Origin: Candidatus Dormiibacterota bacterium
GTDB taxonomy: Bacteria; Chloroflexota; Dormibacteria; Dormibacterales; Dormibacteraceae
DNA length: 41,889 nt
Reading direction: 5' to 3'
Assembly: GCA_003151935.1 (NCBI GenBank)
Contig: PLYZ01000010.1
Coordinates: 26,158 to 68,046, forward strand
A program made the position numbers and the translations under genes. Below are positions 26,217 to 28,447 of the stretch, piece by piece; position 1 is the first letter of the stretch, and each line of letters starts with the position of its first letter. The notes under the pieces are model-generated. The model made no database searches. It had not been told where the DNA came from and was given only the letters and a program-made list of their open reading frames with translations.

Positions 26217-26549
26217 TCAGTTTTGCTTTGGAGGCGCGAAACCCACCCGCCGCGACTCACGCAATGAGCGCTTGGGTCTCCGCATCAGGAGCACGCGCTT
26301 CTCCCCTCCGTCGATGACGTCGGTGAGGTCCCACCCATCCGCGCCGGCCTCCTTCAGGAGTTTGACCAACGTGACCCCATCGACCAGCTGAGCTACGGTC
26401 AGAACCTGTGTCGAGAACTCCCACTCGCGTACAGGAAGGCCCACCGAGGGCACCATGTGGGCGGCCATCGCCGCGCCGTCGCCCGGCGCATTCGGCTGAT
26501 CGGGCTCGTCAGGTTCCTCGTCGGGGTCTTCTTCAGATCGGAGGTCCAT
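26217..26549 (-). CDS. DUF4177-like small protein
   Basis: A 110-residue protein with an acidic, proline-rich N-terminal 30 residues followed by a small alpha/beta domain. The pattern REWEFSTQVLTVAQL, then LLKEAGADGWDLTDVIDGG, then KRVLLMRRP matches the DUF4177 family (W-E-Y strand, L-N-x-x-G-x-x-G-W-E-L helix, then an L-K-R-P strand). No function is known for the family. The ATG lies 25 bases downstream of the short tRNA. Its stop abuts the response-regulator frame, suggesting cotranscription. Confidence 0.75.
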   Translation of the reverse strand: MDLRSEEDPDEEPDEPDQPNAPGDGAAMAAHMVPSVGLPVREWEFSTQVLTVAQLVDGVTLVKLLKEAGADGWDLTDVIDGGEKRVLLMRRPKRSLRESRRVGFAPPKQN

Positions 26550-26573: not shown

Positions 26574-26646
26574 TACCCCCGGCGGGGGTCGAACCCGCGC
26601 TGGACCGGGTTTAAGCCGGCTGCCTCTGCCATTGGGCTACGGGGGC
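26574..26646 (-). tRNA. Unusual tRNA with UAA anticodon and short variable arm
   Basis: A 73-nt cloverleaf: acceptor GCCCCCG/CGGGGGT, D-region GCCCAATGGCAGAGGC, anticodon arm GCCGG-CTTAAAC-CCGGT (anticodon TAA, plus-strand bases 26611-26613), variable loop of only five bases, and T-arm GCGGG-TTCGACC-CCCGC. A UAA anticodon would read the leucine codon UUA, yet tRNA-Leu normally has a long variable arm. The D-stem has three good pairs plus a C-A mismatch, and CCA is not encoded (TTC follows the discriminator A). It is therefore a tRNA-like gene whose amino acid identity is doubtful. Confidence 0.8.
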
Positions 26647-26672: not shown

Positions 26673-27533
26673 TTACTTCGGGTATTCGAAGAACCCCTGG
26701 CCCGATTTCCGGCCTAGATGACCGGCTTCGACGAGCTTCCGGAGCACCTCGGGCGCGTCCCCGCCTTCGCCCTGGCGCTGGCGATCCTTCATCGCCCCAT
26801 AGAAGATGTCGAGGCCGCTGAAGTCGAGCAGGTGAAATGGACCCATAGGCCAGTTAAGGCCTTTCTGAACCGCGATGTCGATGTCCTCGGCGCTCGCGTA
26901 GCCGCCTTCCAGCAGGCGCATCGCCTCCTCGGAGGCCGCGAACAGGATGCGGTTGACGATGAAGCCCCAGATCTCCTTCTGAAGAAGCACGGGAGTGCGA
27001 TCGATGCTGCGCACAAACTCCATGGCGGCCTCAACGGTTGCGTCAGAGGTTTTTGGACCCCTGACGACCTCGCACAGCTGCATCACGGTGACCGGGTGGA
27101 AGAAATGCGTGTTGCAGCACTGCTCGGCACGTCCGGTGAATCCGGCCAGCCGGCTGATCGCGATCGTGCTCGAGTTGCTGGCGAGAATTGCATCCTTTCG
27201 CGCGTCCTTGCCAAGGGTCTCGAACACGCTCTTTTTGGCCTCGAAGTCCTCGATCACCGCCTCGATCACCAGATCGGCCGTGCCCGCCACCGAGGCGAGA
27301 TCGTTCGAATCCTGGATTCGGGCGAGCGCGTCGTCCGCCGCGGCCCCGCTGAGGCGCCCTTTCTCGACCGAGCGGTCGAGCAGCCGGCGATTCTGTGTCC
27401 GCGCGCGCTCGAGCTGGCCCGGAGCGGAATCGACAAGGGTCACCTCGTAGCGGCCGGACAGCGCGGTCTGCAGGGCGATCTGCGAACCCATGGTCCCGGC
27501 GCCGACGACCAGCACACGCTTCAATTCATGCAT
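26673..27533 (-). CDS. 3-hydroxyacyl-CoA dehydrogenase
   Basis: A dehydrogenase of about 286 residues that oxidises L-3-hydroxyacyl-CoA (or 3-hydroxybutyryl-CoA) with NAD+. The Rossmann motif RVLVVGAGTMGSQIALQTA opens the protein, followed by LVIEAVIEDFEAKKSVF, LASNSSTIAIS (catalytic Ser region), NTHFFHPVTVMQLCEVV with the catalytic His, and a C-terminal helical domain with GFIVNRILFAASEEAMRLLE and GPFHLLDFSGLD. I start it at the ATG at 27533, right before the Rossmann strand. An ATG at 27545, four codons earlier, overlaps the divergent gene's ATG. It may act in fatty-acid or butyrate-type metabolism. Confidence 0.93.
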   Translation of the reverse strand: MHELKRVLVVGAGTMGSQIALQTALSGRYEVTLVDSAPGQLERARTQNRRLLDRSVEKGRLSGAAADDALARIQDSNDLASVAGTADLVIEAVIEDFEAKKSVFETLGKDARKDAILASNSSTIAISRLAGFTGRAEQCCNTHFFHPVTVMQLCEVVRGPKTSDATVEAAMEFVRSIDRTPVLLQKEIWGFIVNRILFAASEEAMRLLEGGYASAEDIDIAVQKGLNWPMGPFHLLDFSGLDIFYGAMKDRQRQGEGGDAPEVLRKLVEAGHLGRKSGQGFFEYPK

Positions 27534-27543
27534 GCGGGTGAGC

Positions 27544-27843
27544 ATGAAGCAATTCGAAGCGGCGGCGCAGGCGGCCGTCGATTCGATCCCTGACGAATTC
27601 AGGCCCTATCTGGAGAACACCGTGTTCATCATCGAGGAGAGCTCGCGCGAGGGCCTGATGGGGCTGTATGAGGGCGCGACCGCTCTCTCCTACCTCGGCA
27701 TGCCCGAGCGGATCACGCTCTACAAGCGCGCGCACGAGCAGGCATCCGGCTCGATCGATGAGCTCGTAGAGGAGGTCCGGCGCACGATCCTGCACGAGGT
27801 CGGCCATCACTTCGGCATGGACGAAGACGACCTGCCCTATTAG
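27544..27843 (+). CDS. Zincin-like mini-metallopeptidase (PF06262 family)
   Basis: A 99-residue protein ending in TILHEVGHHFGMDEDDLPY. This is the H-E-x-x-H zinc site with the extra HFG and the downstream E-D-D-L, typical of the minimal zincin family PF06262. The upstream part has IPDEFRPYLENTVFIIEE and LGLYEG-type strands. Family members are single-domain and often lie in housekeeping loci; their substrates are unknown. I start it at the ATG at 27544, since the upstream in-frame region is the divergent gene's N-terminus. It meets the flavin reductase gene tail to tail with a four-base overlap. Confidence 0.88.
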   Translation: MKQFEAAAQAAVDSIPDEFRPYLENTVFIIEESSREGLMGLYEGATALSYLGMPERITLYKRAHEQASGSIDELVEEVRRTILHEVGHHFGMDEDDLPY

Positions 27844-28373: not shown

Positions 28374-28447
28374 GGCGACGTAGCCAAGTGGCAAGGCAGA
28401 GGTCTGCAAAACCTCCATCCCCAGTTCGATTCTGGGCGTCGCCTCCA
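28374..28447 (+). tRNA. tRNA-Cys (GCA), CCA encoded
   Basis: The acceptor GGCGACG/CGTCGCC, anticodon arm GAGGT-CTGCAAA-ACCTC (anticodon GCA) and T-arm CCCAG-TTCGATT-CTGGG form a normal cloverleaf, with CCA at 28445-28447. Confidence 0.96.

Follow-up and report, generated by a model that had tools for sequence, protein, structure and literature searches.

The window analysed here is a stretch of 41,889 nucleotides from the genome of a Candidatus Dormiibacterota bacterium. On its reverse strand, at 26574..26646 (-), lies the gene for a compact class I tRNA with the anticodon UAA and a leucine-type D-arm. A first-pass annotation had described a UAA tRNA with a short, class I body, and this description holds: ARAGORN and Rfam RF00005 agree on the coordinates and on a variable loop of five nucleotides. 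The Infernal-type check that had been suggested, run with RF00005, returns a tRNA at 53.8 bits (gathering 29, E 6e-9), compared with 64-72 bits for the neighbouring tRNAs. The minimum-free-energy fold is not the exact cloverleaf, a cloverleaf-like fold lying 0.2-0.7 kcal/mol off. Read in order along the window, the gene shows the discriminator A73 (26574..26574 (-)), with no encoded CCA after it; the variable loop CCAGC (26599..26603 (-)), at the place where a class II tRNA-Leu has its long arm; the anticodon (26611..26613 (-)); and a D-arm (26622..26637 (-)) made of a 3-bp stem, an open C13/A22 and a loop with A14 A15, G18 G19 and A20a.

The tRNA lies between two genes of the same strand. A 3-hydroxyacyl-CoA dehydrogenase gene (26673..27545 (-); PF02737 and PF00725) lies 26 nt upstream and served, through synteny and a gene tree, as the marker of this locus in relatives. 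A conserved ORF of 110 amino acids (26217..26549 (-)) lies 24 nt downstream. Thus the first-pass annotation was right about the dehydrogenase, but its "DUF4177-like" label for the second flank is not supported, as this ORF has no match among Pfam families. The ORF is kept beside the tRNA across the family, with 45-92% identity among relatives. The window also holds a tRNA-Cys(GCA) gene (28374..28447 (+)), which in several relatives, whichever form of UAA tRNA they carry, is likewise located close to it. Because scans for promoters and terminators near the UAA tRNA gave nothing above shuffled sequences, it is likely that the tRNA is co-transcribed with the flanking same-strand genes and then processed.

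Two peculiarities that had been pointed out are real but do not set this tRNA apart. The C-A mismatch of the D-stem is present and corresponds to pair 13-22, but this pair is open in 128/128 distinct short UAA tRNAs (C-A in 127) and in 28/28 long ones (G-A or A-A). Because 13-22 is open in all the short and long UAA tRNAs examined, the mismatch is a leucine trait and no defect. Likewise, an encoded CCA is absent here and present in the window's four other tRNAs, but ARAGORN finds that the full CCA is also missing from the Arg(CCG), Leu(CAA), Ser(GGA) and one of the Met tRNAs of the same genome, so that its absence is not special to the UAA tRNA. What does set the tRNA apart is its variable loop. 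A class II tRNA-Leu combines an anticodon reading a leucine codon, which we find here, with a variable arm of more than 10 nt, where the window tRNA has 5 nt. In fact, the loop has 5 or 6 nt in 129/129 short UAA tRNAs of cellular origin.

How could such a molecule be recognised as a leucine tRNA? In E. coli, the leucine determinants are A73, A14, the A15-U48 Levitt pair, G18 G19 and A20a, while neither the fold nor the sequence of the long arm correlates with leucylation and variants without the arm stay active (PMC9976931). The window tRNA has A73, A14, G18 G19 and A20a. At 15-48, it and its family combine A15 with C48, and A-U is found in 123/129 cellular relatives. Across 128 distinct short UAA tRNAs, A73 and A14 are present in all, G18 G19 are present, and A15, A20a and U48 occur in 98%, 99% and 95%; the discriminator is A73 in 129/129 cellular and 107/107 viral copies. 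The viral copies have A-U at 15-48 in 68 cases and G-C in 28, a covariation beyond what the search pattern could produce, and the stems of the 128 sequences show compensatory changes. In distant relatives, the search patterns prescribed some of the D-arm, and conservation of 10-13 and 18-23 is therefore partly built in there, but they left free A73, base 48, the variable loop and the stems of the acceptor, anticodon and T arms, and copies found without a D-arm-fixing pattern show the same traits. Looked for in register, the leucine D-loop signature occurs in 178/184 leucine tRNAs and 0/230 others. Thus the window tRNA does not carry the D-arm of another isotype but a signature absent from 230 non-leucine tRNAs.

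We then asked what the host genome (2.94 Mb, 97 contigs, 99.6% complete) has at its disposal to read UUA. Its other leucine tRNAs have the anticodons GAG, UAG, CAG and CAA, and all are about 85 nt with a long arm. Among the 43 tRNA matches of the genome, typed by ARAGORN, there is no second UAA anticodon, and hence no ordinary long-arm tRNA-Leu(UAA), for which a search had been advised. The genome holds one bacterial LeuRS gene. UUA had been expected to be scarce in this GC-rich genome and it is, being the rarest codon of the family (211/272,860 codons, 0.77 per 1000). Nonetheless, ordinary genes use it, among them the genes encoding HemD, TatC and the 49-kDa subunit of NADH dehydrogenase. UUA aligns to leucine at 69% of 65 sites and in 28/33 conserved columns; the other five leucine codons reach 78-84%, a comparison that rests on few UUA sites and on rough gene calls. 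Reassignment of UUA was dropped as an explanation, the codon aligning with leucine.

These codon positions bear on the strongest of the rival explanations, a chimeric UAA tRNA charged with another amino acid that would bring about programmed miscoding at UUA. The idea has some appeal: the class I body differs from the other leucine tRNAs of the genome, the acceptor stem is that of the same genome's tRNA-Arg(CCU) except for the 1-72 pair, and there is a precedent in bacterial tRNA-Pro variants charged with alanine, described in PMC10365949. We consider it very improbable, however, given the leucine-only D-loop signature, A73 in all copies, UUA at leucine columns and the fact that no other UUA reader was found. 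The suggestion of the first-pass annotation that the tRNA may be misacylated thus appears unsupported by the positions of UUA codons.

The short form is the rule in the family. All 73/73 bases of the window tRNA are identical in 26 genomes belonging to six genera (25 species besides the host). Contamination of the assembled genome was dropped as an explanation, as the 26 genomes share the same flanks. The family was represented by 42 genomes: the short form is found in 34 and the long form in 6, no genome carries the two together, and 2, probably incomplete, show neither. The long tRNA of two genomes (G006, G018) directly adjoins the dehydrogenase gene and the small ORF that flank the short tRNA in the window; three other long-form genomes (G013, G015, G022) have the dehydrogenase gene about 1 kb away from it. 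An unrooted tree of the dehydrogenase contains one well supported branch that splits the long-form from the short-form genomes. Because this single branch separates them, the exchange at the dehydrogenase locus needs only one event, whose direction is not given by an unrooted tree. Exchange in the family as a whole probably occurred more than once, because three genomes (G007, G012, G014) have a diverged short UAA tRNA without the dehydrogenase and ORF flanks within the 1 kb fetched on each side and because genus g11 holds one short-form and one long-form species (G012, G021). The locus is therefore conserved in relatives, a point that the first-pass annotation had proposed to check, and neither a better fold with a long arm nor a lack of conserved homologues was found. 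One of the long-form genomes (G022) has its long-arm tRNA-Leu(UAA) in duplicate, the identical copies lying on separate contigs (L108, L116). A long-form pattern match in G025 (L113) was rejected as no tRNA, and weak matches proved to be Arg or Lys tRNAs (G052, G074, G085, G089, G095) or fragments (G062, G069).

Outside the family, a pattern scan of a species genome collection found a short UAA tRNA in 78/80 loci among the matches listed. These were mostly from Actinomycetota, with some from Chloroflexota, Cyanobacteria, Planctomycetota, Acidobacteriota, Rokubacteria and others. When 39 short-form genomes were searched for the long form, matches appeared in five only, all non-actinobacterial and perhaps not all tRNAs. 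In 297 genomes of the Actinomycetes class, the first pattern found the short form in 123 and the long form, many of bldA type, was found in 43; no genome had both. For independent genomes, the chance of such a lack of overlap would be 9e-12, but these genomes are not independent. Two actinobacterial subtypes escaped the first short-form pattern, and looser patterns applied to part of the remaining genomes added 17 and 21, for a total by pattern of about 161/297; a match of the looser pattern in G338 looks like chance. Within the phylum to which the window belongs, matches to the first pattern are restricted to its own class (11/261 genomes). The pattern is also common in viruses: short UAA tRNAs are present in 119/120 viral loci with the pattern, often in tRNA arrays. 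Some phage contigs (among viral loci L352-L471) carry short leucine tRNAs with the anticodons UAG, CAA and GAG beside UAA, together with long ones.

With this distribution in hand, a second rival explanation can be weighed, in which the tRNA is a regulatory leucine tRNA like Streptomyces bldA, its scarcity gating a small set of UUA-containing genes. This role had been raised by the first-pass annotation, and the rarity of UUA in the family speaks for it. We nevertheless find it slightly less credible than miscoding, and very unlikely, since UUA is not confined to auxiliary or developmental genes, as HemD, TatC and the NADH dehydrogenase subunit attest; moreover, the bldA-type sequences of the Actinomycetes set are long-arm and exclude the short form, and the role of bldA itself has been judged possibly not to extend beyond Streptomycineae (PMC4255298). 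The remaining proposal, that of a relic, a pseudogene or an RNA with no translational role, can point to the low RF00005 score relative to the neighbours and to the missing CCA, but is negligible for a tRNA that is invariant across 26 genomes at a conserved locus, belongs to a set whose stems are maintained by compensatory changes and is the only cognate UUA reader found in its genome.

To explain these results, we propose that the window tRNA is a working compact (class I) leucine tRNA that serves as the cognate UUA decoder of this bacterium and would be charged by LeuRS beside four long-arm isoacceptors, a reading to which we give a probability of about 0.9. It is supported by the sequence and its fold, by conservation, by the mutual exclusion of short and ordinary tRNA-Leu(UAA), by codon positions and by the single LeuRS gene, and of the interpretations offered at first, that of an alternative leucine tRNA is the one that prevails. 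We envision that the compact tRNA is probably excised from a transcript of its flanking genes and that a CCA-adding enzyme would complete its 3' end before charging. The single LeuRS may then recognise A73 and the leucine-type D-loop (A14, A15, G18 G19, A20a) and so charge this tRNA alongside the four long-arm ones. The long arm could be lost at little cost because E. coli leucylation does not need it (PMC9976931). On an evolutionary scale, the ordinary and compact forms have been exchanged in this family within the same neighbourhood.

Where the compact form came from is a separate matter. One tentative scenario, which we consider possible though rather doubtful, is that compact leucine tRNAs are phage-derived, that they repeatedly entered bacterial chromosomes and that they displaced the host long-arm tRNA-Leu(UAA), with the result that UUA is now read by phage-derived tRNAs in entire clades. 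The short leucine tRNAs of several anticodons in phages, and the short tRNA-Leu(CAA) of some actinobacteria, bear on this scenario. Identity values do not directly support a phage donor for the window tRNA: its nearest relatives outside the class are actinobacterial, at 92% identity, and the nearest viral copy in the set is about 80% identical. Replacement of the isoacceptor of the rarest codon would fit weak selection combined with a supply of compact tRNAs by phages.

How does this tRNA compare with known systems? A 2023 review states that tRNA-Leu retains its long arm everywhere but in animal mitochondria. With the bacterial class II tRNA-Leu(UAA), Streptomyces bldA included, the compact form shares the anticodon, A73, A14 A15 GG A20a, the open 13-22, the codon and the amino acid, as well as the gene neighbourhood in sister genera; it differs in its 5 nt where the class II tRNA has an arm of 13-17 nt, at pair 12-23 (G-C in the long form, C-G in the short) and at 13-22 (G/A-A long, C-A short). 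Animal mitochondrial tRNA-Leu(UUR) is also class I and, lacking a long arm, is charged with leucine via A73 and A14 (PMC9976931), as we infer for the window tRNA; unlike it, the mitochondrial tRNA is organellar and served by a mitochondrial LeuRS, and it is not homologous by any test made. The short tRNA-Leu of cyanophage P-RSM6, Corynebacterium phage StAB and Mycobacterium phage Myrna come closer, with a short variable loop and a leucine D-arm; the anticodon is UAA in P-RSM6, as here, but GAG in Myrna, and unlike the window tRNA, phage copies often sit within tRNA arrays. A tRNA-Leu(UAG) of a Mycobacterium mucogenicum cluster (PMC6582537) likewise has a short variable loop, but it has another anticodon and is an extra copy beside a normal long isoacceptor rather than a sole reader. 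In M. tuberculosis, tRNA-Leu-2, 3 and 5 are reported to have the long loop (PMC11541572), which fits two of five leucine tRNAs being without it. Databases already list short genes as tRNA-Leu; the literature searched did not yield an explicit account of a short tRNA-Leu(UAA) in bacteria, although older or subscription work may hold one.

The best reading is thus that the compact tRNA works like a leucine tRNA, and would be leucylated as one, yet lacks the defining feature of a class II tRNA-Leu. The long-arm rule is then broken by a free-living lineage, by roughly half of the Actinomycetes-class genomes sampled and by many phages, and no UUA reader other than the short tRNA was found. Such a tRNA constitutes a natural test of what LeuRS requires and is relevant to models of tRNA isotype as well as to designing orthogonal leucine tRNAs. 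It also raises the question of why the UUA isoacceptor above all has been replaced; candidate reasons are the rarity of its codon, a phage supply and the evasion of enzymes recognising the long arm.

Some minor observations concern other compact forms. Mycolicibacterium, M. intracellulare and Tsukamurella have large plasmids with short-UAA-like sequences (matches H26, H27, H29-H32, H34); these are unannotated in the gene table of PLSDB, where RNA genes are not listed. A conserved subtype of the short tRNA-Leu(UAA), found in 21 actinobacterial genomes (for example at loci L474-L483, L328 and L339), has C33 in place of the near-universal U33 (loop CCUAAAA). In two genomes of this set, G373 and G156 (L327, L340), the tRNA-Leu(CAA) found is short as well, and both UUR codons may be read there by compact leucine tRNAs.
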